IMG/VR virus record: IMGVR_UViG_3300046791_000134
Location: 1-34,912 of that record
Origin: a virus
Direction: 5' to 3' (one strand)
DNA length: 34,912 nt
Positions 1-31,233 of this stretch are shown here, in pieces. Each line of letters starts with the position of its first letter. Position 1 is the stretch's first letter. Under the pieces are notes generated by a model, which saw only the letters and a program-made list of their open reading frames with translations, did not search any database and had not been told where the DNA came from. The position numbers and the translations under genes are program-made.

Positions 1-151
1 CGCCCTCGTCCAGCTTATGCTTGTCGATCCAGAAAGAACGACCCTGGAGAACAGCCTTTGACGCGGCCCACTTTGCGCCCTCGAGCGAGCCGTAGACGCC
101 AATGATTACGAAGTCCTCGTAATCCACGTCAGCCAGCACGAACACTTCCAT
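1..151 (-). CDS. Small phage protein, 3' end cut by window edge
   Basis: An open frame runs leftward off the window edge from an ATG at 151, with an AGGAAAGG ribosome site just upstream. The 50 visible residues begin MEVFVLADVDYEDF and end FWIDKHKLDEG. They look like a short regulatory or accessory protein of the kind common in phage early regions; no function is recognised. If the window is circular with one shared base, the frame continues into 34912-34868 and ends after AAWDITPVEAAAIS, giving about 64 residues. It lies just downstream of the next small leftward gene, in the same operon direction. Confidence 0.6.
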   Translation of the reverse strand, partial: MEVFVLADVDYEDFVIIGVYGSLEGAKWAASKAVLQGRSFWIDKHKLDEG

Positions 152-167
152 GGCCCACCTTTCCTCG

Positions 168-353
168 CTACTTGCCTTCACGGATCTTCTCGAGCGGGTC
201 AATCCTCTTGCTCCGCTCACACCACGCCCTGCAGCGATGGCACTCCATCAGTGAGATCACGGCGTAGGCCCCAGCCCTCATGTTGACCTCCTTCACGGAG
301 ATCCCTTTCCAGTCGTGGCCCCAGATGAAGCACCAGATTCTTTTGACCATCAT
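168..353 (-). CDS. Small Cys-rich protein, unknown function
   Basis: A 61-residue product that begins with two Met codons; the second, at 350, has slightly better spacing from a GGTGA sequence. It has an aromatic N-terminal stretch (residues 7-15, WCFIWGHDW) and a CxxCxxxC cluster (CHRCRAWC) near residue 40, then a charged tail. Small phage proteins with a W/H-rich start and a Cys pair are common and may bind one metal, but this is inference. It lies 9 bases after the upstream gene and belongs to the leftward accessory operon. Confidence 0.5.
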   Translation of the reverse strand: MMVKRIWCFIWGHDWKGISVKEVNMRAGAYAVISLMECHRCRAWCERSKRIDPLEKIREGK

Positions 354-362
354 TCACCGGTT

Positions 363-581
363 CTACTTGCTTTGATGTTTCCGCATCCACTTCAGGACCA
401 CTTCCAAGGCGGCGAGGGTGGCCGCAAGGAACTCCTCCTTGCACTCCTTGGGCTTCACGTAGATGATCTTCACCCCACGGTTGTAGGGGTACCGGTTCAG
501 TTCCCTCGCCTTCTTGCGTCCGGTGTTCGTCCCCTTGGCCCACGCTTCGCGCAGGACTGTCTTCGGAATCTTCTTGCTCAT
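363..581 (-). CDS. Small basic hypothetical protein
   Basis: A 72-residue, Lys/Arg-rich product starting MSKKIPKTVLREAW. The ATG at 581 is chosen because GGAGAAG lies 4-10 bases upstream and because it follows the HNH gene stop at 593 by 11 bases; a longer upstream frame would run deep into that gene. The C-terminal half is a predicted amphipathic helix (EEFLAATLAALEVVLKWM). No family is recognised. The basic charge would fit nucleic-acid binding, but nothing else supports that. Confidence 0.55.
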   Translation of the reverse strand: MSKKIPKTVLREAWAKGTNTGRKKARELNRYPYNRGVKIIYVKPKECKEEFLAATLAALEVVLKWMRKHQSK

Positions 582-592
582 GCTCTTCTCCA

Positions 593-946
593 CTAAAGCG
601 AAAGTCTCAACTGTCCGCGCTTCCGATCCCGCGTCTCGCTGGCGTTCTTCTGGTGGTGTTTCACGTCGTACCGCAGGTGGCACCGCTGGCACATGGCCTT
701 CAGGTTCCTACGGCGCGAGTCCTTCGGGTTGTGGTTCAGGTGCGCGATGGTCAGGATGATGACGCCCTTGGCCCACAGAGCGTAGGTCTTGTGCATCTCC
801 TGGCACCGCCGTGGCCCTGGGTTGGTGCGATGCAGACCACATTCTCCGGTGCATTCGCACTGCTCCCCGGCCCGCTTGAGGATCTCCTTGCGGATCTCCT
901 TCCAGTTCCGGGGGTACAGGGCCAGCTTTTCTTTCGTGAGTGGCAT
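593..946 (-). CDS. HNH endonuclease
   Basis: A 117-residue HNH nuclease. HNH enzymes cut DNA with a single metal held in a beta-beta-alpha fold. Visible features are the N-terminal YPRNWKEIRKEIL, a CxCxGECG cluster near residue 32, a long-spaced AHLNHNP motif carrying the catalytic His pair, and NLKAMCQRCHLRYD, which supplies the last Asn/His and a CxxC zinc pair. Start 946 (MPLTKEKL) is preferred over 967 because it avoids a 17-base overlap with the upstream gene and fits the family N-terminus as I remember it; neither start has a good SD. Small phage HNH proteins may act in packaging or as mobile elements; which applies here cannot be told. Confidence 0.8.
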   Translation of the reverse strand: MPLTKEKLALYPRNWKEIRKEILKRAGEQCECTGECGLHRTNPGPRRCQEMHKTYALWAKGVIILTIAHLNHNPKDSRRRNLKAMCQRCHLRYDVKHHQKNASETRDRKRGQLRLSL

Positions 947-950
947 ATGG

Positions 951-1181
951 TTACAAACAGCATTCATCGATTAGATCGATCTTCCCGAATGCCCGGATCT
1001 CACTCTCGAACTCGGCCCACTGTCCAGGGCTGGGATTACCACCATGGTCAGGCCCCCGGACGATGTGAATAGCCATGAGGGAAAGGGCTGCCTCCGTGAC
1101 TTTCTGAAGAGACATCTTCAGAGAGCCGATCTCCTCTGCCATCTTCATCCGCTTCTCGAAGCACGCCTCTAATTCAGTCAT
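951..1181 (-). CDS. Small helical hypothetical protein
   Basis: A 76-residue product. The ATG at 1181 is preferred over the longer frame from 1211 because GGAGGAG sits 7 bases upstream. The first half is probably a single long helix (residues 1-45, rich in Glu, Lys, Met and Ala). The second half has a His/Pro/Gly segment (RGPDHGGNPSPGQW) and ends in ECCL. No family is recognised. It lies between the Gly-X repeat gene and the HNH gene in one leftward operon. Confidence 0.6.
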   Translation of the reverse strand: MTELEACFEKRMKMAEEIGSLKMSLQKVTEAALSLMAIHIVRGPDHGGNPSPGQWAEFESEIRAFGKIDLIDECCL

Positions 1182-1204
1182 TGTCCGACTCCTCCAAAGA
1201 TCAA

Positions 1205-1825
1205 TCACCAAAGGTTCGGCACTTCCGCCAGGATCTCCCGCTTGAGAGCGCCCATCTTGTCTTCCTGTTCCTGCACTTCACCGATCAGCGCCACGACGAA
1301 ACAGCGTTCGCCTTTCCACTTCCATGGCGAGAGAGTCGCATGGAGAGCGTTCGGGGTGCAGACTTCCAGCGGCCCCTTGATCTCCTCGACCATGCCGACG
1401 CTGCGAGGGCCCCCGGAGCCGTTGTTCGCCGGGGTCCCGTCCTTCTTCGCCCGCCAGAAGCCGAGCCGAGCGCCGCCAGCGCAAAGCTGGGCGGCGCGTT
1501 CGCCTCCTGCGGAGGCGAGGATTGCTTCGATGTAGGATTTCTCCCCGGACCCGTCCCCGTACCCGGACCCGTCCCCGTACCCGTACCCGGACCCGGACCC
1601 GTCCCCGTACCCGTACCCGGACCCGTACCCGTACCCGGACCCGGACCCGTCCCCGTACCCGTACCCGGACCCGTACCCGGACCCGTCCCCGTACCCGGAC
1701 CCGGACCCGTCCCCGTACCCGGACCCGGACCCGTACCCGGACCCGTCCCCGTACCCGGACCCGGACCCGGACCCGTACCCGTACCCGTACCCGGACCCGT
1801 CAAGGCTCGCTTCGCTCGCCTTCAA
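1205..1825 (-). CDS. Gly-X repeat protein with conserved C-terminal domain
   Basis: A 206-residue protein. The only sensible start is a TTG at 1825 that overlaps the TGA of the upstream gene (TTGA), with GGGAGAG about 15 bases upstream; the long frame continuing to 1996 runs over the neighbour and has no start of its own. After nine residues come 43 dipeptides, each Asp, Ser or Tyr followed by Gly, then a C-terminal domain of about 110 residues (GFWRAKKDGTPANNG, EIKGPLEVCTPNALHAT, KWKGERCFVVAL, MGALKREILAE). I remember this last domain from phage proteins of unknown function, with similar Gly/Tyr-rich spacers. The Gly-Tyr tract could be a flexible or self-associating linker; this is inference. 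Confidence 0.75.
   Translation of the reverse strand: MKASEASLDGSGYGYGYGSGSGSGYGDGSGYGSGSGYGDGSGSGYGDGSGYGSGYGYGDGSGSGYGYGSGYGYGDGSGSGYGYGDGSGYGDGSGEKSYIEAILASAGGERAAQLCAGGARLGFWRAKKDGTPANNGSGGPRSVGMVEEIKGPLEVCTPNALHATLSPWKWKGERCFVVALIGEVQEQEDKMGALKREILAEVPNLW
1544..1801 (-). repeat. 43 x 6-bp tandem repeat (GGGNNN-type), coding
   Basis: There are 258 bases of uninterrupted 6-bp units. On the coding (minus) strand each unit is GAC, TCC or TAC followed by GGG, so it encodes Asp-Gly (8), Ser-Gly (18) or Tyr-Gly (17). Every Gly codon is GGG, which gives a G3 run every six bases on the coding strand and mRNA. Asp units are always followed by a Ser unit and, except for the first, always preceded by a Tyr unit, so the order is not random. 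The tract lies inside the gene at 1205-1825 and keeps frame. Confidence 0.97.
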
Positions 1826-2106
1826 GCCCAAGGGCCACTCTCCCAGGCTTTCGCGGCCTCTTCGCTGGCCTCCATGACGGACGTGACATCGCGGAGCGTG
1901 ATCGCAGGGACAGCGGGCCCAACCTTGCTGTTCTTGCTGGGGCCCGTCGCGGCGAGCCCGAGGATGCCTTTGACGTCCTGCGACCAGTAGACGCACATGC
2001 GGGCCTTCTCGATCCGGATGGTGGCCTTGTCGCTGGGATCCCCGTACCCGAAGAACACTCCCTTGTGGGCCGTGGTCACGACCACAGCGGATTTCTTGGA
2101 TGCCAT
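1822..2106 (-). CDS. DUF6948-like phage protein
   Basis: A 94-residue product starting MASKKSAVVVTTAHKGVFFG. ATG 2106 is chosen over 2112 because AGGAGG lies 7 bases upstream of it and only about one base upstream of the other. The motif set (VVVTTAHKGVFFGY, ARMCVYWSQDVKGILGLAATGP, ITLRDVTSVMEA) matches, from memory, the phage family DUF6948, whose function is unknown. The downstream repeat gene starts inside its stop codon, so the two are probably translated together. Confidence 0.75.
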   Translation of the reverse strand: MASKKSAVVVTTAHKGVFFGYGDPSDKATIRIEKARMCVYWSQDVKGILGLAATGPSKNSKVGPAVPAITLRDVTSVMEASEEAAKAWESGPWA

Positions 2107-2140
2107 ATTCATTCCTCCTAGTAAGTTCTTGCCTTTGGTC

Positions 2141-2344
2141 CTAGTCCTTCTGGATGTGGTACAACGCGTTCTCGCGCTCGTCCTGCGTCAGCGCCGAAGC
2201 GTGGATCAGCTTCCCCTGGATCTGCATTCCGAAACGGTTGCGGAGATGCCGCAGATCCTCCCGGCCGCTCGTCACCAGAGCCGAGAGCCGCTTGAACGCC
2301 CACTGGTCGAAGTCGATCCGGTCTGTCACCTTCTGGCTCACCAT
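2141..2344 (-). CDS. Small hypothetical protein
   Basis: A 67-residue product starting MVSQKVTDRIDFDQWAF. ATG 2344 is preferred over 2386 because GGAGGAAAT lies directly upstream. The sequence is mostly helical and charged (REDLRHLRNRFGMQI, TQDERENALYHIQKD). No family is recognised. It appears to be the first gene of the left-hand leftward operon, with a possible promoter 45-75 bases upstream. Confidence 0.6.
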   Translation of the reverse strand: MVSQKVTDRIDFDQWAFKRLSALVTSGREDLRHLRNRFGMQIQGKLIHASALTQDERENALYHIQKD

Positions 2345-2390
2345 ATTTCCTCCGTCAAAAGTCATAGGTCCAACCTGCTCATCCATGTAG

Positions 2391-2421
2391 ACTATACGCC
2401 ATATCTCTCAAATAGTTTCAA
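2391..2421 (-). promoter_or_regulatory. Possible weak promoter for the left-end operon
   Basis: On the minus strand TTGAAA (2421-2416) and TATAGT (2396-2391) are separated by 19 bases. This is a recognisable sigma-70 arrangement, but the spacer is longer than the usual 16-18. It lies in the AT-rich gap between the leftward operon and the rightward ribbon-helix-helix gene, and would start transcripts about 40 bases before the ATG at 2344. A regulator made next to it could act here. Confidence 0.3.
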
Positions 2422-2505
2422 ATAATCTGTTAGATAATGCGAATGTTGGTGAAATTGTCCTGTCGAGAGCGTATAACTAGGTGGATGAACAAGAAGGACA
2501 AGAAG

Positions 2506-2649
2506 ATGAGCCATGCTAGGGACTGGAAGACCGTTGGCATTGAAGAGAAATGGCTGGAGCAGCTCCGCGTAGAAGCGGAGAAGAACCGCCGCAGCGCCCA
2601 GGAAATGCTTGGGCTTATCCTTGAGGAGCGATACACCGCTCCGAAGTAG
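2506..2649 (+). CDS. Ribbon-helix-helix (Arc/CopG-type) regulator
   Basis: A 47-residue product starting MSHARDWKTVGIEEKW. The pattern is one short beta strand (KTVGI) followed by two helices (EEKWLEQLRVEAEKNRR and SAQEMLGLILEERY), which is the ribbon-helix-helix fold used by small dimeric DNA-binding repressors. ATG 2506 has AAGGA 7 bases upstream; 2485 and 2437 are longer alternatives. It is the only rightward gene in the left 6.7 kb and faces away from the left-end operon, a typical place for an autoregulating repressor. Its operator was not identified. Confidence 0.65.
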   Translation: MSHARDWKTVGIEEKWLEQLRVEAEKNRRSAQEMLGLILEERYTAPK

Positions 2650-2660
2650 GTAATAGAGGA

Positions 2661-2683
2661 CCGGTGAGGGGGTACCGCACCGG
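2661..2683. other. GC-rich hairpin between convergent genes
   Basis: CCGGTG (2661-2666) pairs with CACCGG (2678-2683) around an 11-base loop. It lies 12 bases after the ribbon-helix-helix gene stop and between two convergent genes, where a bidirectional terminator would be expected. Neither strand has a U-run after it, so it is not a clear intrinsic terminator. Confidence 0.35.
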
Positions 2684-2750
2684 CCCCGAGGAGAGAGGGT
2701 GGTGAACCCTTCGCCTCATCGCGCAAGACGCGACAATCCGAAGTGTTCAT

Positions 2751-2912
2751 CTACCACCGGTCCATAAACTTGAGCATTGCCCAGAGCACCAGGGCGAACG
2801 GAACGAGCACAATCCCAGCCACCTTCAGGTACAGCCGCACCTCATACCAGAACATGGCGCGGTCAACATCGCTGCGGCGCACAGCCGTCTGTTTGTTAGG
2901 ATTGAATTTCAT
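2751..2912 (-). CDS. Small single-pass membrane protein
   Basis: A 53-residue product starting MKFNPNKQTAVRRSD, with GAGGGGGAT directly before the ATG. Residues 1-27 are polar and positively charged; about residues 30-49 form one hydrophobic helix (VAGIVLVPFALVLWAMLKF), ending DRW. The charge pattern suggests the N-terminus stays in the cytoplasm. It starts 7 bases after the stop of the upstream winged-helix gene. The role is unknown; a single-TM peptide in a phage early operon could be an anti-host or exclusion factor, but there is no direct evidence. Confidence 0.7.
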   Translation of the reverse strand: MKFNPNKQTAVRRSDVDRAMFWYEVRLYLKVAGIVLVPFALVLWAMLKFMDRW

Positions 2913-2919
2913 ATCCCCC

Positions 2920-3174
2920 TCACAACAGCGTCAGATGCACGGGTTTCGGAGGCTCAAGCGAGAGGCGGTAGCGGACCACTCTCGAGCCGTTCTCGCTGAA
3001 GCCTTCCTCGATCGTCTGGATGGAAAGGCCACGATCGCGCAGTCGGCGGATGTAATCTCGAGCGGCGGCGACCTGACACTTATCCTCGATCTCTTTCGTG
3101 GTGGCTGAGAGATTGAGGGTCAAATAGTCGTACACCCTAAGCAGTCTTGGGGACTTCAGGTCTTCCCGTTTCAT
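2920..3174 (-). CDS. Winged-helix-like DNA-binding protein
   Basis: An 84-residue product starting MKREDLKSPRLLRVYDYL. The order is helix, short strand, helix (TTKEIEDKCQ), recognition-like helix (AAARDYIRRLRDRG), then two strands forming a wing (LSIQTIEEGF and SRVVRYRLSLE), as in small phage winged helix-turn-helix proteins. GGGGGTG lies 4 bases before the ATG. It overlaps the upstream zinc-site gene by 38 bases. It probably binds DNA; the target is unknown. Confidence 0.6.
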   Translation of the reverse strand: MKREDLKSPRLLRVYDYLTLNLSATTKEIEDKCQVAAARDYIRRLRDRGLSIQTIEEGFSENGSRVVRYRLSLEPPKPVHLTLL

Positions 3175-3331
3175 GCTTCACCCCCTCTTTTTCCGCGTAA
3201 CAAATCACATGCTCGATGACTCTTTGATGTTCGATGCCTGCGATCCAGGAGAAGACCATTTGTCCGGGCTTGATCTCTCCATGGCACTTGCCGCAGACAC
3301 CACGCCTACTCGCTCTCCACATCATTCCCAT
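3137..3331 (-). CDS. Small zinc-site protein
   Basis: A 64-residue product. The start at 3331 is set by GGAGG 7 bases upstream. Cys13-x2-Cys16 and His41-x2-Cys44 could hold one zinc ion; between them lies KPGQMVFSWIAGIEHQRV, which resembles the strand segment of small treble-clef or LIM-like sites. It ends inside the next gene (38-base overlap). A tract with TATAAA on the minus strand lies about 40 bases upstream, but no convincing -35 goes with it. Confidence 0.55.
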   Translation of the reverse strand: MGMMWRASRRGVCGKCHGEIKPGQMVFSWIAGIEHQRVIEHVICYAEKEGVKHETGRPEVPKTA

Positions 3332-3464
3332 GGTCTGCCCTCCACCTAGACCGGGACCCTTTCCCCTTTATAGGGGCTTCTGTACCCACTGACCCATTCG
3401 CTACAGGCTGAACCGCTGCTCCAGCCGCCCCTCTACGCTTCCGGCTGGAATGCCGACACTCTCG

Positions 3465-3653
3465 TCAAGTCAGTCCTTGACTCATCCGGCATCGCCTCTT
3501 ACTGAGCAGTCTCCAAGAAGCCCCAAAGGACCCCTTGGGGAACTGCTCTTCAGAGGTCGCCTTTTGTTCCGCCTCGGAGAGGCCGTGGCCGCGAAGCCCT
3601 TGGCCTTCTTTTCGGAGTACAGCCCCGTCCAAGACGACGCCTGTAGCGTTCAC
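3465..3653 (-). CDS. Doubtful small ORF after rusA
   Basis: A GTG at 3653 follows the resolvase stop by three bases, and the frame stays open for 62 codons (MNATGVVLDGAVLRKEGQG to RCRMSQGLT). A weak GAGAA lies 7 bases upstream. Support is the position and the open frame only; the composition is not distinctive and a strong stem-loop (3504-3548) lies within it. It may be a real short gene or simply structured untranslated RNA. Confidence 0.3.
   Translation of the reverse strand: MNATGVVLDGAVLRKEGQGLRGHGLSEAEQKATSEEQFPKGSFGASWRLLSKRRCRMSQGLT
3504..3548. repeat. Nested inverted repeat (stem-loop)
   Basis: Outer arms GAGCAGT (3504-3510) and ACTGCTC (3542-3548) enclose inner arms CCCCAA (3521-3526) and TTGGGG (3535-3540). 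The hairpin would form on either strand. It sits downstream of the RusA gene in the leftward operon and could slow or end transcription or stabilise the mRNA end, though no U-run follows. The stretch 3332-3464 holds no gene that I can support, only a CCCCT/AGGGG hairpin at 3363-3376. Confidence 0.5.
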
Positions 3654-3656
3654 TGC

Positions 3657-3998
3657 TTAATTCTCGATCTGAACCGTGATGCTCACTCTCTCGATGCCCG
3701 TCTGCTCGATGCGCGTGGCATGGACTTCCTTGATGCCGCGATCGCGCTTGAATAGGCCGTCCTCGATGGCCTTCAGGATGTTCGAGGTGTCGATCCTCGC
3801 CTTCTTCTTCCACGCGATGGCGATGGAGACGACGGCGGCGGATCCTTTTGGGATCTCGTCAGGGAGACCGCCCAAGTTCGCCAGCAAGCGGACACGGCGC
3901 TTGAAGGCCACGTACCGCTTGGCGGTTTTTGTCCAAGGGGCAGCGTGAACGGGGAAGCCCACCAGAGGCTCCGTTACGCTGATCGTCCAGTTTTTCAT
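3657..3998 (-). CDS. rusA: RusA-family Holliday junction resolvase
   Basis: A 113-residue protein of normal RusA length (about 110-130). RusA dimers cut four-way DNA junctions using acidic residues that bind Mg. The core here is RIDTSNILKAIEDGLFKRD: Asp70, Asn73, Lys76, Asp80 and Asp86 match the family pattern D-x-x-N-x-x-K-x-x-x-D followed by an acidic residue. The usual second Asp of the central pair is replaced (DRGIKEV), which deserves a check. It sits downstream of the SSB and ERF genes, so the operon provides annealing, strand protection and resolution for phage recombination. Confidence 0.8.
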   Translation of the reverse strand: MKNWTISVTEPLVGFPVHAAPWTKTAKRYVAFKRRVRLLANLGGLPDEIPKGSAAVVSIAIAWKKKARIDTSNILKAIEDGLFKRDRGIKEVHATRIEQTGIERVSITVQIEN

Positions 3999-4099
3999 GT
4001 TGTTCCACTCGATCTCTGGGCCTGCGGCTCATCCCGCGAGGCCCCATCCCATACCCCAGGTCACTTCCCAACCCCCTCTCGATCCCCCGGGCCAGGTGC

Positions 4100-4585
4100 C
4101 TACTCGTCGTCTTCTGGAGGCTGCCCTACGGCGTAGGGCGTGATCGTCAGTCCGGGTTCTCCGGTGGTCGTGCAGTTCGCAAGCATCCGCTCGACGTCCT
4201 TCTTGCCTTCGTCGCTCATCTCGTGATGCGCCCACTCCTTCACCATGGCGAGGAACCGTTTCCAATCGGTCGTCTCACGGCCCTTGGTGTCGGCGAGCTT
4301 CACCCCAAATGCTCCACGCTGGAGCATCCCGCGATCCTTGCCAGAGAGGGTCTTGACTTCGACCTTCAGCTCCTTCTCGTACTTCTCGAAGAGCTTGCGC
4401 TTCTTGACGACGACGTAGAGTTCCTTGAGCAGCGGCTCGCAGAGCTCGCTGTAGGCAAGGGGCGTCTCCGCGAGAGCTTCAGCGCTCTCAGGTCCAGGGA
4501 GATCCTTGCTGAAGTGCTCGATCACCTGCTGGGCGTCGGTCTTCGGCGCGTCGTCGAGCGATAGGTCGTCCAGTTCTTCATTCAT
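4100..4585 (-). CDS. Hypothetical protein of the recombination operon
   Basis: A 161-residue product starting MNEELDDLSLDD. ATG 4585 is chosen because it lies directly after the ssb stop (4588); longer frames read through ssb. The N-terminus is acidic and low in complexity; residues 50-90 form a likely coiled coil (LLKELYVVVKKRKLFEKYEKEL); then comes a basic segment with GAFGVKLADTKGRETTDWKRF. Its place between ssb and the resolvase suggests a recombination or replication accessory role. No family is named with confidence. The 100 bases between it and RusA (3999-4099) carry nothing I recognise. Confidence 0.65.
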   Translation of the reverse strand: MNEELDDLSLDDAPKTDAQQVIEHFSKDLPGPESAEALAETPLAYSELCEPLLKELYVVVKKRKLFEKYEKELKVEVKTLSGKDRGMLQRGAFGVKLADTKGRETTDWKRFLAMVKEWAHHEMSDEGKKDVERMLANCTTTGEPGLTITPYAVGQPPEDDE

Positions 4586-4587
4586 GG

Positions 4588-4977
4588 CTACACCTTCACG
4601 TCGTTCATGTCGTCCGATGCGGCCGGGGCTTCCTCGCCCTTCTTGCCTTGGCCGCCGATGAAGGTGAGCCGATCGGCCGTGACGCGGATCTTGGACCGCT
4701 TCTGCCCCTGATCCGTCTCCCACCGCTCTTGCTTGAGCCGCCCTTCGACGTGAAGCTGGCGGCCCTTCTTCAGGTACTCGCAGACCTTTTCCGCACCGTC
4801 CCCGAACTTCACGCAGTCGATGAAGGAGACTTCCTCGACCTTCTCGCCGCTCGACTTGGTGTAGTTGTTGTTCAGCGCCAGCGTGAACTCGAGGACCGCC
4901 GTTCCCGTGGGGGTGTAGCGCAGTTCCGGATCCGCCGTCAGGTTCCCGAGGATCATGACCTTATTCACGCAGCTCAT
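4588..4977 (-). CDS. ssb: Single-stranded DNA-binding protein
   Basis: A 129-residue SSB with the OB-fold of bacterial SSBs: MSCVNKVMILGNLTADPELRYTP-like start, then FTLALNNN, SFIDCVKFG, AEKVCEYLKKGRQLHVEGRL, and W residue in QERWETD. It coats ssDNA exposed by replication or resection. The ATG overlaps the stop of the ERF gene by four bases (ATGA), so the two are translationally coupled. The usual acidic tip ending in D-I-P-F, which recruits partner proteins in bacterial SSBs, is replaced by DDMNDVKV; the acidic character remains but the Pro-Phe end is missing. Confidence 0.95.
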   Translation of the reverse strand: MSCVNKVMILGNLTADPELRYTPTGTAVLEFTLALNNNYTKSSGEKVEEVSFIDCVKFGDGAEKVCEYLKKGRQLHVEGRLKQERWETDQGQKRSKIRVTADRLTFIGGQGKKGEEAPAASDDMNDVKV

Positions 4978-5696
4978 TGCTTGATCTCCTTGATGGTCTG
5001 GATGAGTTTCGAGCCGACTCCGTTGAGCTGGTAGGCGATCTCCACCATGCAGAGGGACTTCCCGGCCGTCTCCGCGATGGCCTTGTGCTCCGGAACGGAC
5101 GTGGCGAACGTCGTGGTGTCGCCGCCCGTCACCTTCCAGACCTTCGGCTTAATCTCCTCTACCGCTGCGATGGTGCCGCGCCACGCGACGTTCTTCGTGT
5201 CGGGCTTCTTGGGCTCTTCCTTCTTGGTCGGCTTCTCTTCCTTGGCGGGAGGCTTCGGCTTTCCGCCAGCGCGGCCTTCAGTGCCTTCACCGTCGTCATC
5301 CTCATCGGATTCTCCGCTCCCATCGTCATCATCAGCAGGAACCCCCAGAAGCGCCGCCAGACTCACGCGGCGGGCATAGGTGATGGCGGAAGCCAACTCC
5401 TGCGGCTTGACCCCTCCAGGGAGCGGGTAGACGCCGGAGATCGACTGCCCGGACTCGTGGGCAATCATGGTCTTGATGAAGTGGTTCCGCTGCTCGTCGA
5501 TGCCTGTGGGCTGAAGCACGGTCAAGCCATGCTTTGCCAGCGGCCCGTCGACCACCTCATGGAGAGCCGCCAGATCCGCGTACTTCGATTTGAAGAACGG
5601 GTTGACCTTGTTCCGAACCAAGGTCTTGAACTCCTTCTTTGCCGCGATGAGGGCCTTCACCAGTTCGGGCCCCATGCCGTTCGTGTCAGCGACCAT
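4974..5696 (-). CDS. erf: ERF-family single-strand annealing protein
   Basis: A 240-residue annealase of the ERF type. The N-terminal domain shows KKEFKTLVRNKVNPFFKSKYADL, a gap region with GLTVLQPTG, and TYARRVSLAALLGVPADDDDG, all typical of ERF. An acidic then Lys/Pro-rich linker (roughly residues 125-170) leads to a second, beta-rich domain of about 70 residues (WRGTIAAVEEIKPKVWKV to QTIKEIKQ), which looks like a small OB-type fold. ATG 5696 is preferred (GGTGA upstream); ATG 5720 and longer starts lack an SD. It anneals complementary ssDNA, probably with the SSB encoded next to it. Confidence 0.85.
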   Translation of the reverse strand: MVADTNGMGPELVKALIAAKKEFKTLVRNKVNPFFKSKYADLAALHEVVDGPLAKHGLTVLQPTGIDEQRNHFIKTMIAHESGQSISGVYPLPGGVKPQELASAITYARRVSLAALLGVPADDDDGSGESDEDDDGEGTEGRAGGKPKPPAKEEKPTKKEEPKKPDTKNVAWRGTIAAVEEIKPKVWKVTGGDTTTFATSVPEHKAIAETAGKSLCMVEIAYQLNGVGSKLIQTIKEIKQ

Positions 5697-5805
5697 TTGG
5701 TCACCGTGCCTTTCTCCCATCGCTACTTGGCGTGGGCCTCTCGGCCCTCCTGTGAAGAAGGCCGAGTGGTTCACCCCAACTGAGTTCGGAGAGTAAGGAG
5801 ACTAG

Positions 5806-5940
5806 TTAGAAGTCCTCCCGCCCTCGGTCGGAGATTTCCTCCGCATCCGAATGGGAGATGGGATCGAAGTGGCCGCCGCCGCTCATCACCAGATGAAGCT
5901 GGCAGAGCTCGTCGGTACTGGAGTCGCAGGTGCAGATCAA
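5806..5940 (-). CDS. Small Cys/His peptide with TTG start
   Basis: A 44-residue product, MICTCDSSTDELCQLHLVM to GREDF. The TTG start overlaps the TGA of the upstream gene (TTGA) and has GGGAGGTG four bases upstream, which makes it convincing although short. Three Cys (CTC, then DELCQLH) and His residues could bind metal. No family is recognised. The stretch from 5697 to 5805, between this gene and ERF, holds no gene I can support. Confidence 0.55.
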   Translation of the reverse strand: MICTCDSSTDELCQLHLVMSGGGHFDPISHSDAEEISDRGREDF

Positions 5941-6164
5941 AAGGCACCTCCCATGAAAAGAAGGACATTCGGGATCAGGAGAACCACGATCACCTTGAGC
6001 CAGCCCAAGCGGCGGGCCTTCTCGTTCTGGTAGTCGACGTACCGCTCGAGGCTGATTTTTCCGCTCCCTTCGCACAGGGCGCAGGCGTGAGACTCTTCCC
6101 CGTCGCACGATGGGCACACCTGGGGATCATCCTCGGGCGGGTCAAGCGGGCCGTCGTAGTTCAT
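5937..6164 (-). CDS. Zinc-knuckle plus membrane-anchor protein
   Basis: A 75-residue product starting MNYDGPLDPPEDD. Cys17-x2-Cys20 and Cys28-x2-Cys31 (CEGSGK) form a DnaJ-like zinc knuckle; residues 55-73 are one hydrophobic helix ending MGGAF. The predicted picture is a zinc site held at the inner membrane face. It overlaps the upstream gene by four bases (ATGA) and the downstream TTG gene by three, so the three are tightly coupled. The role is unknown. Confidence 0.7.
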   Translation of the reverse strand: MNYDGPLDPPEDDPQVCPSCDGEESHACALCEGSGKISLERYVDYQNEKARRLGWLKVIVVLLIPNVLLFMGGAF

Positions 6165-6358
6165 CGGAGGCCCTCCCGCTGGCAGACTTCCATCAGGTTT
6201 TGGAATCCGGCCTCGGTCAGATGGCCGCGATCCCGGGCAGCTTCCGCCATGAAGCGGAAGTAATCGAATTGTGGGGACCCGCCCATCCCATTCTGCGGCG
6301 GCTTAAGGAGTGCCCCCTCTCGGGGTAGGGTCCCCGAGTTTTCCCTGTCGGTCGCCAT
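6161..6358 (-). CDS. First gene of recombination operon, unknown function
   Basis: A 65-residue product starting MATDRENSGTLPREG, with a helical C-terminal half (FRFMAEAARDRGHLTEAGFQNLM). ATG 6358 has GGGAGG four bases upstream; an in-frame ATG at 6382 lies within the leader hairpins and has a poorly placed SD. The SD at 6358 can be buried in a hairpin with the segment just before it (see 6359-6557), so its translation is likely controlled by leader folding. No family is recognised. Confidence 0.65.
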   Translation of the reverse strand: MATDRENSGTLPREGALLKPPQNGMGGSPQFDYFRFMAEAARDRGHLTEAGFQNLMEVCQREGLR

Positions 6359-6557
6359 GACGCCTCCCGTTGCGGGAGACATCACCCTTTAAAAAGCAAT
6401 GGGCCGTGCTGGCCCAAGCCTAAAGGCGTGATGTCCCGCAGTTCGTAACGAGCCCGGAAAAAGTCGCCTTCCCCCGGAGATGGGCTGAGTTGCTACACAG
6501 AGCACAAGACAAGGGAAGGGCGACTCTCTTCGGGCTCGGGTCAACTCTGTGTAGCAC
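6359..6557 (-). ncRNA. Structured 5' leader, riboswitch-like (candidate)
   Basis: This stretch of about 199 bases has no gene and lies between a strong leftward promoter and the first ATG of the recombination operon. On the minus strand it contains, 5' to 3': arm B' (6556-6545), arm A' (6538-6513), B (6502-6491), A (6473-6449), arm C' (6440-6421), a small hairpin (UGGGCC/GGCCCA, 6416-6400), arm C (6391-6371) and the SD. B'/B pair perfectly over 12 bp; A'/A pair over about 24 bp with one bulge, one mismatch and two G-U pairs; C'/C give 19 bp with two small bulges. B and A interleave, as in a pseudoknot. Arm C also carries CUCCCG, which can instead pair with CGGGAG of the SD around a CAA loop. 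No known class is recognised. Confidence 0.65.
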
Positions 6558-6563
6558 GTGTTT

Positions 6564-6591
6564 AATATACGACCAAATCATTAATTGTCAA
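6564..6591 (-). promoter_or_regulatory. Strong sigma-70 promoter for recombination operon
   Basis: On the minus strand a perfect TTGACA (6591-6586) is followed, after 16 bases, by TATATT (6569-6564) in an AT-rich tract unlike the surrounding GC-rich DNA. The predicted transcript start is near 6557, which is the first base or so of the outermost leader stem. It would drive 6358 down through ERF, SSB and RusA. Confidence 0.75.
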
Positions 6592-6653
6592 CAGAATAAA
6601 ATAGAGAATGCTGAAAATCGTTCCGATAGTAATTGAACTCATTTCGGCAGTAT

Positions 6654-6666
6654 CGGGAAATTCCCG
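6654..6666. promoter_or_regulatory. 13-bp palindrome upstream of integrase
   Basis: CGGGAA-A-TTCCCG is an exact inverted repeat with a one-base centre, located between the leftward promoter and the integrase gene. Its size suits a dimeric regulator or an integrase accessory site. A second weak dyad, GAGGTTG (6694-6700) and CAACCTC (6724-6730), lies nearer the gene. Function is inferred from position only; no clear rightward promoter or attachment site was found in 6592-6747. Confidence 0.35.
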
Positions 6667-6747
6667 GGGACGAGACCGGGGACCCTGCGTACTGAGGTTG
6701 CGGCTTAGTGGAGTGCCCCCGCTCAACCTCTACCTTGAGGGTGACGG

Positions 6748-7641
6748 GTGGCTGAAAGCGACTGTCGTACACTTCGGGAGCTCGTCGGCGACTGGCTCTC
6801 GTCGTGTGGTCTCAGCGCGAACACGGTCCAGACGTACCGGACCGCCCTGGTTGACTTGGTGGAGCACTTCGAGCGGGAGAGCTTCGACCCGGCCGACATC
6901 CGCTACAAGCAGGCGAAGGGGTGGCTCTCTTCTCTCCAGAAGCGGCAGTACGTGGGCTCGACGATCAACTCGTATCTATCGGCGGCCCGGGGCTTCTGGG
7001 TGGAGCTGCTCAACCTGGAGATTGCGGAGCACAATCCATTCCGAGAACTGCGGAACGCGAGGTATCAGCGCCCGCTCCCTCATCCACTCGAAGAAGGCGA
7101 AGTCGTGTCGCTCATCGTGGGGGAGCCGGATCTCCAGCTCCGGACCCTCTGGGCATTCTTCTACAACACCGGCTTCCGGATCGACGTGACGCGCAGAGTG
7201 AAGCGGGATCAAGTCGACTTCGGAAACAAGCTCGTGCGGGTGGTCCACAAGCGCGGAAAGGAGCAGATTCAACCGCTCCGGGATCCGATGCTTCGGATGC
7301 TCGAGGCTCACTTGCTGAAGGCGAAAGAGTCGCCGTACTTGTTTCCGGGAGACGACTGGAAGGGCGGCCGGGCGATGCAGGGTGACACGATCCGGGAGAA
7401 GTTGCGCGAGGCGGCGAAGCGAGCGGGGTTCTCGAGGGATGTTCGGCCGCATCAGTTTCGGCACTCGATCGCGACGCATATGCACGAAAGGGGGGCTGAT
7501 TTGCGTGAAATCCAGGTGTTCCTGGACCACGACAACATTCAGACGACGGCGATCTATTTGAGGGTGAGCAAGAAGAGGCTACGGGAAGTGGTGGAGAGGA
7601 CGAAGCCACCGGCGCTCGATATGGATTTCCTGGGATCGTAG
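6748..7641 (+). CDS. Tyrosine recombinase / integrase
   Basis: A 297-residue tyrosine recombinase, of normal length for XerC/D-like phage integrases. Residues 8-100 form the SAM-like core-binding domain (TVQTYRTALVDLVEHF). The catalytic domain has Arg144 (TGFRIDVTRR), Lys171 (KRGKEQIQPL), His235-x2-Arg238 (HQFRHSIATHM), His261 (FLDHDNIQTT) and the nucleophile Tyr270 (AIYLRVS). The GTG at 6748 has GAGGGTG 5 bases upstream. It would join phage and host DNA at attachment sites or resolve multimers. It is the only gene between the early leader and the late block; no excisionase was recognised. Confidence 0.95.
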   Translation: MAESDCRTLRELVGDWLSSCGLSANTVQTYRTALVDLVEHFERESFDPADIRYKQAKGWLSSLQKRQYVGSTINSYLSAARGFWVELLNLEIAEHNPFRELRNARYQRPLPHPLEEGEVVSLIVGEPDLQLRTLWAFFYNTGFRIDVTRRVKRDQVDFGNKLVRVVHKRGKEQIQPLRDPMLRMLEAHLLKAKESPYLFPGDDWKGGRAMQGDTIREKLREAAKRAGFSRDVRPHQFRHSIATHMHERGADLREIQVFLDHDNIQTTAIYLRVSKKRLREVVERTKPPALDMDFLGS

Positions 7642-7991
7642 GGAATCGCTCCCTTCTGTATTGAAGGGATCGTTTCTACCATCGGGTGTAAGTCCTTGAT
7701 TAGACGTCGGTGTCGGATGGCTGCCTGACCGCTGAAATCATGCAGGAATCGCGGTTTAAGCTCCCGGCCGTCACTTGCCACTCTATTCCTACTCGGGCAC
7801 TTTTGGTGCCCTTGTAGGCCCAGAGCCGGAATGAGTGGTTGATCTAGCTATTCAGGATCATGCGGAAATCAACCAATTCCGTCATGACCGGCGATTTCCC
7901 TTGCTCGACGAGGCCCATAGTAGTATCGTTCGGGTGGCATAGGGGTATGTGGATATTGTTATGTCTAGTCGCCTGAGGTGAGGGGATTCGA
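7642..7991. other. 350-base gap after integrase
   Basis: No gene, tRNA or clear promoter is supported. It holds small hairpins: CCCTT/AAGGG around 7650-7670, GGGCAC-TTTTG-GTGCCC at 7795-7811, and GGTTGAT/ATCAACC across about 7840-7880. None has a U-run, so none is a convincing intrinsic terminator. Phage attachment sites often lie next to the integrase gene, so attP could be in this gap or in 6592-6747, but no core sequence can be picked without the host. Confidence 0.4.
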
Positions 7992-8267
7992 ATGGTCGGC
8001 TATCTACTGCTGTCCTTCCTGCTGGGAATCTCCTTCACGATCGCATCAGCCTTTGCAGTCCTTCAGGTCCTCTCGAGGTTCAAACTACTTAGAAACATAC
8101 AGAGGGATGTCGATGTCGACAAGCGTCTATTGGAATGTGAGGCAGCGATCAATCATATCGCTCTCAAGGTGAGTGAGGTTAGCAACACCCATCTCCAGTC
8201 TTCTCCCCCAGGGAAAGACCCTGAACTCTACGACGTCGCAGCGGAATCCATCGGCAGGGATTCATAG
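7992..8267 (+). CDS. Small membrane protein with cytoplasmic tail
   Basis: A 91-residue product starting MVGYLLLSFLLGISF. One hydrophobic helix (about residues 3-26) is followed by a charged helical tail (NIQRDVDVDKRLLECEAAINHIALKVSEV) that could form a coiled coil, and a polar end. GAGGTGAGGGG lies 6 bases before the ATG. It opens the rightward late block upstream of the terminase. The layout resembles small holin-like or i-spanin-like proteins, but no such identity is proven. Confidence 0.6.
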   Translation: MVGYLLLSFLLGISFTIASAFAVLQVLSRFKLLRNIQRDVDVDKRLLECEAAINHIALKVSEVSNTHLQSSPPGKDPELYDVAAESIGRDS

Positions 8268-8334
8268 TTTATAGTTTGTCATCTATGGAACGTGAGTGAT
8301 GACACACCATACGAATCACGAAACCCCAAGTGAC

Positions 8335-8353
8335 GGGGGTGGGGTGGGGGTGG
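8335..8353 (+). other. G-rich tract with quadruplex potential
   Basis: G5-T-G4-T-G5-T-G2 on the plus strand lies in the 164-base gap between two small genes, 10 bases before TATAAATTTT and a C-rich run (CCCCCCTCCC). TATAAA (8364-8369) could be a -10 element, but no good -35 lies 16-18 bases upstream. The G and C tracts could also pair in part around the AT segment. No gene is seen in 8268-8431. Confidence 0.4.
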
Positions 8354-8431
8354 ACATCCGCTCTATAAATTTTCCCCCCTCCCGAGTTTTCCCATCGACC
8401 TTCTGGATGGAGTCCTCTCGACGCATGATCT

Positions 8432-8638
8432 ATGGTCGGACCTGACTTCTATGCCGACAGACGGATCTCAAGGGACTCGGTCCTATCGAAGGGGCATCGG
8501 CATCGGTGGAGTCCTTGGGGTGTGGCGACAGGGTTGATGAAGAGAAAGCGGATCGCGGCATGGAGGTTCTGTCTGGATCCGGAGTGTGATGCCGTCGAGT
8601 ACCGCAGGAAGGAACGGAGACGTGCCCCAAGGCCATAA
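8432..8638 (+). CDS. Small zinc-site protein upstream of terminase
   Basis: A 68-residue, very basic product. His22-x-His24 and Cys47-x4-Cys52 (RFCLDPECDAVEYR) could hold one zinc ion; the tail is Arg-rich. The start at 8432 lacks a close SD (GGAG lies 20 bases upstream), so the N-terminus is uncertain. It overlaps the next gene by 50 bases in another frame. Small zinc and HNH proteins next to terminase genes are common in phages and sometimes aid packaging; this is inference here. Confidence 0.5.
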   Translation: MVGPDFYADRRISRDSVLSKGHRHRWSPWGVATGLMKRKRIAAWRFCLDPECDAVEYRRKERRRAPRP

Positions 8639-9383
8639 GAATCAGAAGAAGATCCCGAGTGATCCGCTGGTGAAAGCGGAGATGGAGCACGCGGTCAAGG
8701 CTGCGGAGCTTGCGGACATCGTGCCGCCCGGGCAGGTCCGCAAGCGCAGGAAGCCACGCACTGGGAGGGAGGGATACAAGGGGAAGATCGTCGAGGATCG
8801 TCGGGAGACGGATCCCAGGGGGTCCCTCTCGTTTGAGACGCTCGCGAAGGTCGAGACCCTCCGGCTCGTGAACGGCCGGTACATGTCGATGTCTCGGGCG
8901 CAGGCTGTCAAGCGGGTGGTGAGGCGTATCAGGCTCCTCATGGGGGTGGACTCCCCACCGAATGCCGTGCTCAAGTGGTGGGTCTCAGAGATGGTCGCGA
9001 ATCTCGAGGAGGATTCGGGCGTCGTGCGCCTGGGAGCCCTCCGGGTGCTCGCTGAGGCTATCGGGCTGCTCCGGCCGGGTGTGGGGCTCATGACCAGGGC
9101 CCAAGCCCCGAGCTGGATCCCCAAGGTGACGTTCAAGACCATTCCTCCCAAGCAGAAACTCGCCCATGCCTCCGGCGTCCAGAAGCTCGCGAACCTGGAG
9201 CTTGCAGAGAAGGGGCCGCCCGCTGTGCCGGTCGAGACCGTCCCGGCCGTCATCGTCCCGCCGCCACCGTCTGCACCTCCCAAGCCACTCGCCATGAACA
9301 ACGTCGTGAAGTTCTCCCAGTCGAACAACCCCGACGATTGGTCGACCTCTGGAAACGCCGGAGCCGTCACCGTGCAGCCGTGA
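8589..9383 (+). CDS. terS: Probable small terminase subunit
   Basis: A 264-residue protein placed directly before the large terminase and overlapping it by four bases. ATG 8589 has GGAG 4 bases upstream. The N-terminal 90 residues are basic, the middle is helical (LSFETLAKVETLRLVNGRYMSMSRAQAVKRVVRRIRLL is one such segment in part; keyed by ETLRLVNGRYMSMSRA), and the C-terminus is Pro-rich (PPPPSAPPKP). TerS proteins bind phage DNA as rings and feed it to the large subunit. The call rests on position, size and a helical DNA-binding-like core, not on a recognised motif. Confidence 0.5.
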   Translation: MPSSTAGRNGDVPQGHKNQKKIPSDPLVKAEMEHAVKAAELADIVPPGQVRKRRKPRTGREGYKGKIVEDRRETDPRGSLSFETLAKVETLRLVNGRYMSMSRAQAVKRVVRRIRLLMGVDSPPNAVLKWWVSEMVANLEEDSGVVRLGALRVLAEAIGLLRPGVGLMTRAQAPSWIPKVTFKTIPPKQKLAHASGVQKLANLELAEKGPPAVPVETVPAVIVPPPPSAPPKPLAMNNVVKFSQSNNPDDWSTSGNAGAVTVQP

Positions 9384-25362: not shown

Positions 25363-26811
25363 ATGGCGACGACAGGTGGCGACAACACGGAACATGCCCG
25401 CCGCGTGAAGGCGCTCCTGGAGAAGACTCAGGCCGTTCTCCCGAGGATCATGGACGATGCGATCGAGACGGGGGACTTCTCCAAGGTTGAAAAGGCGCAG
25501 CAGGCCGTGGCTCGGCTGTCTGAGCTTGGCAATCGCACCTTGGAGTCGATCTCCGGACACCTTCCGGTCACGCTCTCGGGTCCCGATGAGGGCGGCTCTC
25601 CTGAAGACCCTGGCGAGCCCACGGTCATGCCGCCCGACGATCCGGCTCCAGAGCCGCAGGGACGGCTCTCTGGGCTCGGAATGCCGGGTGGCAATGAGGG
25701 CGATTACTCCGACATCGACTTGGCCCTGGAGAGAGCGAAGAAGATCGACCATCCTAGGGGCAGCCTGTCAGGTTTGGAGGACATCGACAGCACGCTGGCC
25801 GACGCGCAGCGCATCAACTCAGGGGAGCCGCCCGATCCGGAGGGTCTCTACCCGGAGGGGGCTGGCACGCTTCTCGAACGCGCCCGGAAGCTGAGGGAGT
25901 CGTCCGAAAAACCAGACTTCCAAGTCTCTTCCCGGGAAGAGAATCCGCCTCCAGAGGAGCCCGAGGTGGGTGGTGAGATCCCGCCTCCCTCCGTCAATCC
26001 GCTCGAAGGCGAGCAAGAGCCGCCGCCCATCGAGAAGGTTGCGCCCAAGGTAGAGCAGGACTTCGGGGGCAACCCGCTCGCCGTGGCCGACGACATCGAG
26101 CGCCATGCCGAACAGCAGGGGGCCAGCGAGTCGGAGCGAGAATTCCTGCGCCGCGTGAAGGCCGAACTCGGGGAGCGCCCGAAAGCGTTCACGATCACCA
26201 AGCTCCTTGCCGCCCTCGCTCTCGGGGCCGGGTCCATCGTCGGAGCGTGGCTCACCCACCGCTATAGCGGTCAGGCCCTCGTCGATCTGAGCGAGGATCA
26301 GAAGGACTACGACAAGCGCAGGGGTGAGATCGGCCGCGAAGTTTATCACGAAAACAAGGCGCTTTCCCGTGCCCGTGAGAATCAGGCCGCCATGGAAGGG
26401 CGTCTCTCGAAGCTCGAACTCGGGCGGGATGCTCGGCAGGAAGCGCAGCTTGCGACACGTAAGGAGCTCGCAGCCAATACCGAAGCGGGCAGGGATTCTC
26501 GTCTCTCTACCCAGGAGGCCGGGAAGGGGCAGCGCCTTGACACGCTGGAAGGCGGCCGGAACGCACGGCAGGACAAGCAGATTTCCGCGCAGAAGGATCT
26601 CGCTCGCCTCCGTGCGGACCTGCACCCCGAGAAGATGGCCCACTGGAGCGACTCCGACAAGCAGGAGTCGATCCGGCTCCGGCAGGCCATCAACAACATC
26701 GACCGGAACATGATGTTCTCGGCGGATCAGCCGGGCGATGAGGCCAAGAAGGGCGATTTCATTCGGCAACTGAACGATCTAATCGAGCGTAACCGTCAGG
26801 CAGGGAAATGA
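25363..26811 (+). CDS. Ejection-type virion protein with TM segment
   Basis: A 482-residue protein. The first 70 residues are helical, residues 70-245 are Pro/Glu/Gly-rich and disordered, residues 276-298 form a hydrophobic segment (LLAALALGAGSIVGAWL), and the last 180 residues are long Arg/Glu/Gln helices with near repeats (LELGRDARQEAQLATRKEL, LEGGRNARQDKQISAQKDL). The layout fits a protein threaded out of the virion into the host membrane. It starts two bases after the upstream stop and ends in an ATGA overlap with the next gene. Confidence 0.65.
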   Translation: MATTGGDNTEHARRVKALLEKTQAVLPRIMDDAIETGDFSKVEKAQQAVARLSELGNRTLESISGHLPVTLSGPDEGGSPEDPGEPTVMPPDDPAPEPQGRLSGLGMPGGNEGDYSDIDLALERAKKIDHPRGSLSGLEDIDSTLADAQRINSGEPPDPEGLYPEGAGTLLERARKLRESSEKPDFQVSSREENPPPEEPEVGGEIPPPSVNPLEGEQEPPPIEKVAPKVEQDFGGNPLAVADDIERHAEQQGASESEREFLRRVKAELGERPKAFTITKLLAALALGAGSIVGAWLTHRYSGQALVDLSEDQKDYDKRRGEIGREVYHENKALSRARENQAAMEGRLSKLELGRDARQEAQLATRKELAANTEAGRDSRLSTQEAGKGQRLDTLEGGRNARQDKQISAQKDLARLRADLHPEKMAHWSDSDKQESIRLRQAINNIDRNMMFSADQPGDEAKKGDFIRQLNDLIERNRQAGK

Positions 26812-29800
26812 ACGAGGTCAGCTTCCCCGAGGTCGAGTCGACCATCTCCTTTCCAGAGGTGGAGGCCCCCGCTGTCTCGTTCCCTGAGGTGGAGACGCCT
26901 GCCGTGTCGTTTCCGGAGGTCGAGCAGGAGCAGCCGCAGGAGGCCGCCCCCGGCAAGCCTCAAGCTCAGAAGCCCGTCACCCCGGTTGGGGACACCATCG
27001 ACGCCATCACGAACCAGATGAATTCGTGGTTCGGACAGGACCCGAAGGCCGCTCCCGCTCAGCAGGAGAGGACCATCGGAGGCTTCGCCAAGAACATCCT
27101 CCCCAGCATCGGCAAGAACGTCCGGGACATCGGCAAGGGCATTCTCCTGGCCCCGGTCATGGGCGTAAAGGCGGCCTCCGATCTCTACCGGGAGGCGTCC
27201 AAGCCCGATCAGCGGTGGAAGAACGAGACCAGCGCCGGGAAGATGCTGAAGGACGTGTTCGGCGGCGCTGTAGAGCAGGTCGGGGACAGCCTGATCGACA
27301 AGTACGCCGAGGCGTACTACGACCGCAAGGGCCTGAAGCCTCACGAGCAGGGTGGTCATGGTGCTTGGGTGCCTGACCCAGAGAACCCCGGCCACCTCAA
27401 GAAGGACGAAAGCACGGTTTCCGGGGCCATCGGGAGGGCTGCCTATGAGGACCCCATGGGGGTGGCGCTCGACGTGGCTGCTGCGAAGGATATTCTCGCC
27501 GCTGGCGGGAAGGCCGTTGGAAAGACCGCTCGGATGGCTGGCGATCTCTCTGCTGCGCGGAAGGCAGAAGCGGCCATGGAGGCGGTGAAGCCGGGGGCCA
27601 AGGCCATCGAGGCGGGGCTCGAGGCGACCGCCAAGCCGAACATCGTCCAGCGGGTTGGCGGCGCGATCGAGAAGGGGTCGGAGTTGTTCGACACGGCCGG
27701 GAGCCGTGCGGCCCGCGCCGTCTCCGATGCGACCATGAAGGGGCTGAACAAGGTCTCAGGCGGGTGGCTTGGTGCGGCTGATCCGGAGGCCCGCCGTCTC
27801 GCCCTGAGACTCAAAGGCGAGGAGGGGGCGCGAGCCGCCGTCAAAGCCGCCGAAGACGAGAGGTCGCTCGTTCCCGCCTACCAATCCCTCTCGAAAGAGG
27901 AGATCGCGGCGCTCGAGGAAGTGAAGCGTCTCGGGGACGGAGCGTCTCCCAAGGCGCTCGACGTCGTCCACCAGAACCCCATCGCCATCCAGGCCGCCCA
28001 GGACTATGCGGATTACGTGAGCGGCGTCCGGGAAGACTACATGAAGGCGAACGGGCTCAAGAACGATGCTGCCCTGAAAACCCGCGTTGCCGCCCAGTAC
28101 GCCATCGAAAAGGGCTGGGGAACCAAGCCCGGGGCCCTCAAGAAGGCGGCGGCCGAGATCGACCAGATGAAGCAGTTCAAGCCCACCTACGTTCCGACCC
28201 GCGCGGAGGCCGCATCTGGGATGTCCATGGAGAAGGTGCTTGCGGAGCCCAGCACCATCCGGCAGGGGAAGGTTGGATTCCTCGAGCGGTTCAAGGGACA
28301 GCAGCCCTTCGCGTCCGATCCCTTCGAGTACATTCCGAAGATGGCGAAGGACTTCCGGAAGACCGAAGGCAACATCCGGTGGCTCCAGCGGATTCAGGAT
28401 GAGCCGTCCCTCGTCGCGGCCAAGACCGCGAAGGAAGCTCGTGGGCAGGAGCCGATCTTCACCCAGGGGGCCTACAGCAAGTACTTCGACGAGGGCGGGA
28501 AGTACAAGGCCCAGGGGATCTTCCAGCGCCAGCTTGTGAACGAGCACGGCGACCGGGCTTTCTCCATGATGCGGACCCCTGCCGTCCAGAAGCGCATCGC
28601 CCAGATCAGCAAGATCGTCCCGAACGAGACGGTTGGACGGATCCTGAAGCTGGAGTTCTCGAAGTGGGCGAACGAACCCGGGATGCTTATCCGTGGGTGG
28701 GACAAGATCAACAACGTCTTCAAGACCGCCGCCATCAAGTACAACCCGCATTACTACAGCGGGAACGCGGTCGGGGATGCGGTCCTCTCGCTCCTGGCCG
28801 GGGTGACGCCCGGTGATCTCCGGCTTGGGGACAAGCTGAAGGAGTTCGCCCCGTTCCAGGCGCGGCGTGCGGCCAGTGTCCATTCAGACGCCTTCACTGG
28901 GAGGTTCGGGAAGGCGATGGACTGGATCAACGACGTGGACGCCGCCGGGAAGCGCGGCATCATCACCAAGGAAGTTGCGGCAAAGCTCACGAAGGCCGGG
29001 ATCTCAAGAGCGGAACTCGAGGCAGAGCTTCAGCGCGTCCTTCCGTCCGTCGAGAAGTACGCCGACGCCCAGGTGGCTCGGAGCCAAGCCCATGAGATCC
29101 TCGCCAAGCGCCGGGAGGCGCTGTCGAAGGCAACGGGCCGTGGCAAGGCGGCAGCCCAGGCGAAGTACGATCAGGCCGCAGCGGCAGCGCAGGAGATCGA
29201 GAAGACTCTCCCGCAACTCCGCGTGGATGCGGAGCTCGTGCGCCCCGCCATCGAACGGGCGAACCAGTTCTTCGCGGACTATCACGGGCTGGGGCCGATC
29301 GAGCAGTACGTCCTCAGACGCATCTACCCGTTCTATGCTTTCAACAAGGCGATGTTCACGCTGGCCGTCAAGCTCCCGGCCGTGGCCCCGAAGATGGGGG
29401 CCACCCTCCGGCACTTCGCCGACTACATGATCGCGCAGACGAACGAAGACGACCGCCCCGGGCGGCTCAAGGGGTACACCCAGACTGGATTCAAGGGAGA
29501 GGGCGGGAAGCCGGTGTCCGCATCCTTCGAAAGCCTTTCTCCCTTCGGTGGGCTGAAGCCAGGAAGGCTATTGAACGTCGACATCCCCGGATGGATGGAT
29601 CCGCTCCAGAGTCCTATCGTTGCCGCAGGCTACGGGGCGATGGGCGGGAAGACGGTGTATAGCTCGCCGTACGGCGGTGGAGACGTTGTTCCGTCCAAGG
29701 GTGGCAAGGGCTACGAGACTATGCCTGACGGGTCGATCCGAAAGGTTGTTCCGCAGAGCGGGATCCTGGAGACGGCCGGAAAGATGGCCCCCATCCTTCC

Positions 29801-30098: not shown

Positions 30099-30232
30099 GG
30101 TGACGTGAAAAAGATGCGAACGACCGTCAATGCCCCGAAGACGCCAGCCACGACGAGGAATATGATCCACCCTGAGAGGCGTGCATTCTCACTCAGGAGC
30201 TTGGCGATCTTCTGCTTGTCTGTTGCGCTCAT
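30095..30232 (-). CDS. 45-residue single-pass membrane peptide
   Basis: A leftward product, MSATDKQKIAKLLSENARL then one hydrophobic helix (residues 20-42, GWIIFLVVAGVFGALTVV), ending FFTSP. AGGTG lies 7 bases before the ATG. It starts one base after the lipoprotein stop, so the two form a small leftward unit. Its end overlaps the stop of the large rightward gene by a few bases. Role unknown; holin-like or exclusion roles are both possible. Confidence 0.6.
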   Translation of the reverse strand: MSATDKQKIAKLLSENARLSGWIIFLVVAGVFGALTVVRIFFTSP

Positions 30233-30233
30233 A

Positions 30234-30572: not shown

Positions 30573-30626
30573 AGGAAACCCTCCCAGCAAAACGAACTAT
30601 ACCTCATGTTTTAAGAAGGGGGAACC

Positions 30627-30854: not shown

Positions 30855-30863
30855 GGAGGAACT

Positions 30864-31214: not shown

Positions 31215-31233
31215 CATTGAAGGTTGGAATCGT

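Follow-up and report, generated by a model that had tools for sequence, protein, structure and literature searches.

The leftward operon and its leader

The window analysed here, a linear virus record of 34,912 bases, is that of a tailed phage, with terminase, portal and head protein genes on the rightward strand. Leftward genes run from about 6358 to 168 and a tyrosine recombinase family integrase gene (6748-7641, plus strand) lies divergent from them. An earlier note on this DNA placed expression of ERF, SSB and RusA under control of a structured leader at the head of the leftward genes. Pfam matches support the identification of ERF and SSB whilst that of RusA is weak (PHROG E 1e-3), and the first gene after the leader is not one of these but the small ORF1 (Table 1), for which no family match was obtained in Pfam or PHROG. 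The minus frame of ORF1 is the best of six by codon usage, albeit by a modest margin, and its stop overlaps the start of ORF2 (6164-5937) as ATGA, making coupling to the second gene likely. The direct target of leader control would be ORF1, with control of ERF and SSB requiring such coupling or an effect on mRNA fate. Further along, a minus-strand ORF at 1205-1996 encodes a long glycine-tyrosine-serine repeat (GSGYGYGDGSG) in repetitive DNA.

Table 1. Positions in the window of the leader elements, the promoter and the first leftward gene
Feature	Position	Strand	Remarks
Promoter TTGACA-16-TATATT	6564..6591	-	TTGACA 6591-6586, TATATT 6569-6564; 11/12 consensus bases
Arm B'	6545..6556	-	perfect 12-bp complement of B; 5' end of predicted transcript
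Arm A'	6510..6538	-	27 pairs with A
Arm B	6491..6502	-	within A'/A loop
Arm A	6449..6476	-	competing local 10-bp hairpin possible from 6477-6454 alone
Arm C'	6428..6440	-	resembles SD arm; rivals it for Y
Terminator-like hairpin TGGGCC-AGCAC-GGCCCA	6391..6416	-	TTGCTTTTT tail; enclosed by C' and Y
Arm Y (GTGATGTCTCCCGCA)	6371..6385	-	switching arm; partners C' or SD arm
SD arm CGGGAGGCGTCAU	6357..6369	-	holds SD 6368-6363 and AU of AUG
ORF1	6161..6358	-	65 aa; heads leftward operon

The minus-strand promoter proposed in the earlier note was recovered and is the sole site of such quality in positions 1-9000. Shuffled sequence contains a mean of 1.3-1.5 such promoter sites per region and the argument for this promoter is therefore one of position, not count. 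The stretch at 6564-6594 (CTGTTGACAATTAATGAT...GTCGTATATT) bears a close likeness to the E. coli trp/tac promoter. Promoter spacing puts the predicted +1 at about 6557, consistent with the proposal that the transcript begins right at the perfect stem B'/B, and the leader would then extend for about 199 bases to the AUG at 6358. Codon usage gave no coding signal over these bases, in agreement with their description as non-coding, and a leader-encoded protein was rejected on this basis. Approximately 60 bp upstream of the promoter, CGGGAAATTCCCG at 6654-6666 forms a 13-base palindrome with an odd centre, a possible operator.

The predicted leader fold has an energy of -99 to -103 kcal/mol with z -5.4 to -6.7 (no shuffle matched it in the run giving z -5.4), the lambda pL leader giving z -3.3 as a yardstick; here and below, energies and states are thermodynamic model values from one sequence. 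When 140-nt pieces were folded across the whole window on both strands, the leader accounted for four of the top 11 among 994 segments, but since segments elsewhere in the window score equally high, fold strength alone is no proof. One further stretch, the apparently non-coding 350 nt between the integrase gene and the next ORF (7642-7991), folds with z about -4.2 in 140-nt pieces and -2.1 overall.

Folding of both strands, as the earlier note had advised, gave a more stable minus-strand RNA (z -5.4 vs -3.1 for the plus strand), although both beat chance. The latter result, together with the adjoining integrase gene, fits a DNA-level element such as an operator pair or a recombination or replication site, the inverted repeats of which would fold as RNA incidentally. 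We consider this very improbable, given the better fold and favourable G-U pairs of the minus-strand RNA, the lack of any further occurrence of the B arms and the placing of a hairpin over the SD, described below, exactly on the start codon.

The interleaved 5' domain

Arms B' and B form the perfect 12-bp stem reported previously, the only 100% inverted repeat pair of at least 12 within 200 nt in the window. The A'/A stem, earlier put at about 24 bp with two imperfect positions, is also real but comprises 27 pairs, four of them G-U in minus-strand RNA, and its imperfections were undercounted, with an A.C mismatch at 6530/6457 and a bulged C at 6518. The argument that G-U pairs assign function to the leftward RNA still leans towards the minus strand (four G-U against one), although the 6530/6457 pair is G-U only in plus-strand RNA. 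The interleaved order B'-A'-B-A was likewise borne out. In a scan requiring at least 12 Watson-Crick pairs for B and a run of at least 11 for A, this arrangement was present once in the window and also in one of 24 whole-window shuffles; the order in itself is uncommon, not unique. A slightly looser scan detected interleaved stems in unrelated viral loci (L012, L013, L015, L017, L020, L029, L054, L073 and L085), and the B/A topology thus has no diagnostic value by itself. Two of these loci carry, in a gap between ORFs, an 18-bp hairpin with a loop that pairs with a downstream segment in an H-type pseudoknot pattern (L017 1184-1281 and L020 5905-6002, z -3.6).

Stepwise folding predicts that B'/B forms first (nt ~62), that a local hairpin in arm A then appears and that A'/A takes over the minimum-energy fold at nt ~110, the forced B state having an energy of -41.9 vs -52.8 kcal/mol for the free A state. 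A pseudoknot containing both stems is conceivable, with estimated loops of about 5, 10 and 16 nt. Arm C' was not found to pair strongly with the 5' B/A domain, the best duplex reaching only -9.7 kcal/mol, and a link from this domain to the ribosome site is therefore not supported. Rather than sensing a ligand, the domain most likely serves in RNA stability or processing, and the 27-bp A'/A duplex is a plausible substrate for RNase III.

Alternative pairings at the ribosome site

Arm Y forms duplexes of equal energy with its two partners (Y/C' and Y/SD both -23.5 kcal/mol). The former confirms that pairing with C' ties up CUCCCG, and among 2000 shuffled versions of the 60 nt upstream, 18 offered a partner as good as C' (about 0.01). 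The latter produces a hairpin (6385-6373 / 6369-6357) of 13 pairs with a CAA loop, covering all of GGGAGG plus the first two bases (AU) of the start codon, so that the pairing of CUCCCG with CGGGAG predicted earlier to bury the SD is in fact stronger than described, at 13 bp rather than 6 bp. At -21.1 kcal/mol this SD hairpin is the most stable among 49 gene starts of our own selection from the ORF list (mean -5.2, sd 3.8), and its stability was reached in none of 5000 shuffles of that stretch. It contains G-U pairs where the other strand would give A.C. Among the 49, the integrase start (6716-6750) ranks second in the stability of its ribosome-site hairpin, at -16.2 kcal/mol.

Folding thus yields two exclusive pairings, one of which buries both SD and start codon, and in the model energies these pairings are stable beyond chance and mutually exclusive. 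For the whole leader the C' (ON) state beats the OFF state by 4.2 kcal/mol, with a predicted occupancy of 0.999 at 37 C, and ON is further favoured by the transcription of C' and Y ahead of the SD arm. The predicted default state is therefore ON, a feature absent from the earlier account, and OFF would need a trigger that removes C'; with ON so strongly favoured, OFF may never occur without one. Portions of the SD are still predicted to be locally paired in the ON fold, which weighs against reading the leader as a switch. A temperature switch was rejected, as the model keeps ON dominant from 4 to 70 C.

A terminator-like hairpin at 6416-6391, overlooked previously, has a stem of -11.5 kcal/mol, is directly followed by TTGCTTTTTA and is retained in the ON fold as the tip of C'/Y. 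It could act as a weak attenuator or just form the apex of the C'/Y hairpin. Were transcription to stop here, a short separate RNA of ~165 nt would be made and upstream structure would set the level of read-through, and the site does lie on the correct strand within the leader and is one of only two minus-strand terminator-like sites in positions 1-7000. Attenuation of this kind is nevertheless improbable, the T tract being broken (TTGCTTTTT) and the stem modest, with no antiterminator pairing identified in the leader and the predicted fold accounting for the hairpin simply as the tip of C'/Y. A plus-strand terminator-like hairpin is present within ORF1 at 6319-6338, facing the leader.

The earlier proposal was of a translational riboswitch. 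Its translational part is supported by the exclusive SD pairings, seen by folding, in shuffles and in the gene-start comparison, whereas the case for ligand sensing goes no further than a likeness of shape: a complex 5' domain lies ahead of a ribosome-site platform with mutually exclusive pairings, as a ligand-binding riboswitch of a new class might have. Rfam 15 covariance models gave no match anywhere in the window at the gathering threshold (the best match at a relaxed threshold was sX2, at 15.9 bits vs 40 needed), in keeping with the observation that no known riboswitch class was recognised. Given also that no homologues were found and no coupling between domain and platform was predicted, ligand binding is highly improbable as the basis of control.

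Relatives, known phage leaders and a candidate mode of control

Searches for homologous leaders, among them covariance searching as suggested in the earlier note, returned none across the loci, records and IMG/VR sequences covered. Relatives were sought via ORF1, integrase, terminase, ERF, portal and one further virion-region protein, and close relatives proved nearly absent from the collections searched. The only one was L092, a 14-kb contig with a portal protein 67% identical, and its alignment begins at window position ~8904 and runs onward, leaving the leader uncovered. Single-sequence covariance models R1 and R2, which detect near homologues only, matched nothing in 616 kb of loci except the leader itself and, weakly, its opposite strand, and R1 gave no match in 22 whole records. 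No similarity to the leader DNA was found in phages and plasmids, nor was the exact B-stem pattern found in IMG/VR. Gaps in ERF relatives screened for structure were mostly ordinary; the one at L087 2610-2810 is structured (z -3.3), yet its predicted fold differs from that of the leader.

The leader was consequently compared with characterized phage leaders and, although assigned to no named family, it resembles lambda pL/N by layout and lambda cIII by logic. As in the lambda pL-N leader, a folded RNA of ~200 nt would connect a strong leftward promoter to the first early gene, but the fold is stronger here (z -6.7 vs -3.3) and the first gene is unrelated to N. The lambda nut/N leader carries boxA and boxB downstream of pL, and no boxA-like motif was found in 6350-6600 of the minus strand, which separates the two. 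With the lambda cIII leader, in which RNase III opens an occluded ribosome site (PMC5371410, PMC2777011), there is a shared logic of an early phage gene whose ribosome site is hidden by one fold and exposed by the other; the three-way competition of Y, C' and SD arm and the interleaved 5' stem pair are peculiar to the present leader, and no sequence relation was apparent.

These likenesses raise the alternative of an early leader of pL/N or cIII type processed by RNase III, in which A'/A or C'/Y is cut or bound, cleavage governs mRNA stability as well as access to the ribosome site, and the alternative fold is only part of processing. Stems of 27 bp and of 13 bp or more in a ~200-nt leader right behind a strong leftward promoter would suit such a role, the lambda pL leader being comparably long and folded (z -3.3) and RNase III acting on the cIII ribosome site as cited above. 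In view of the missing relation to lambda in sequence, and of the missing boxA-like motif, we regard this as unlikely, if deserving of attention.

In the T4 gene 32 operator a pseudoknot of ~28 nt precedes a UUAAA-rich ribosome site that has less structure (PMC535899). The T4/RB69 operator and our leader share a pseudoknot-like 5' structure ahead of the ribosome site and an operon with an SSB gene, but here the SSB gene is distal and the ribosome site is highly structured (ranking first among the 49 compared), and the leader falls outside the definition of that operator.

Put RNA is conserved in sequence and binds RNA polymerase. Were the leader put-like, it would act in this manner so that terminators along the long leftward operon are ignored, and, as a structured RNA with which the early leftward transcript opens, it is placed as is HK022 putL (PMC9378689). 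The leader fold differs from that of put, which is of ~70 nt with two stem-loops (PMC9378689); no second copy of the leader, as a putL/putR pair would imply, is present in the window, and there are few minus-strand terminator-like sites to overcome. Similarity to HK022 26000-33000 was also lacking, in a record that leaves put unmarked and of which the right stretch may thus have been missed. A put-like function is, overall, very doubtful.

We give about an even chance to our preferred interpretation, that the region is an orphan non-coding leader exerting translational control in cis over the leftward early (recombination) operon. RNA initiated at the promoter (6591-6564) would form the 5' hairpin B'/B first and then the much stronger A'/A, with B'/B possibly persisting alongside it as a pseudoknot. 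Y would be captured by C' once made, before the SD arm emerges, leaving the SD accessible, so that ORF1 would be translated by default. Were C' instead bound by a protein, small RNA or other factor, or removed, as might happen through processing upstream of Y, the freed Y would fold on the SD and start codon as the 13-bp hairpin, halting translation of ORF1 and the coupled ORF2. That this RNA is made, that the cell contains both of its states, which way control runs and what, if anything, acts as trigger are all inferred.

A more ambitious reading, which we consider rather improbable, is that the leader belongs to a class of phage regulatory RNA not described before. In such an RNA a pseudoknot of 12-bp and 27-bp helices at the 5' end would be coupled to a ribosome-site switch of three arms, and the timing of the early recombination genes would respond to a metabolite, a phage protein or RNA processing. 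If the proposed translational control is real, it would place a compact point of regulation by RNA at the head of an early phage operon, and its three-arm design would be open to test by few mutations. The leader is at present an orphan, and its worth hinges on homologues or a transcript being found.

A direct repeat of ~25 nt (22/25 with one gap) is shared by ORF1 (6298-6321) and the integrase 5' region (6700-6724). Through this repeat the leftward ORF1 mRNA would be a trans-acting antisense RNA to the integrase mRNA, complementary to it just ahead of the integrase start, with a predicted duplex energy of -62 kcal/mol equalled by one of 1500 random segments.
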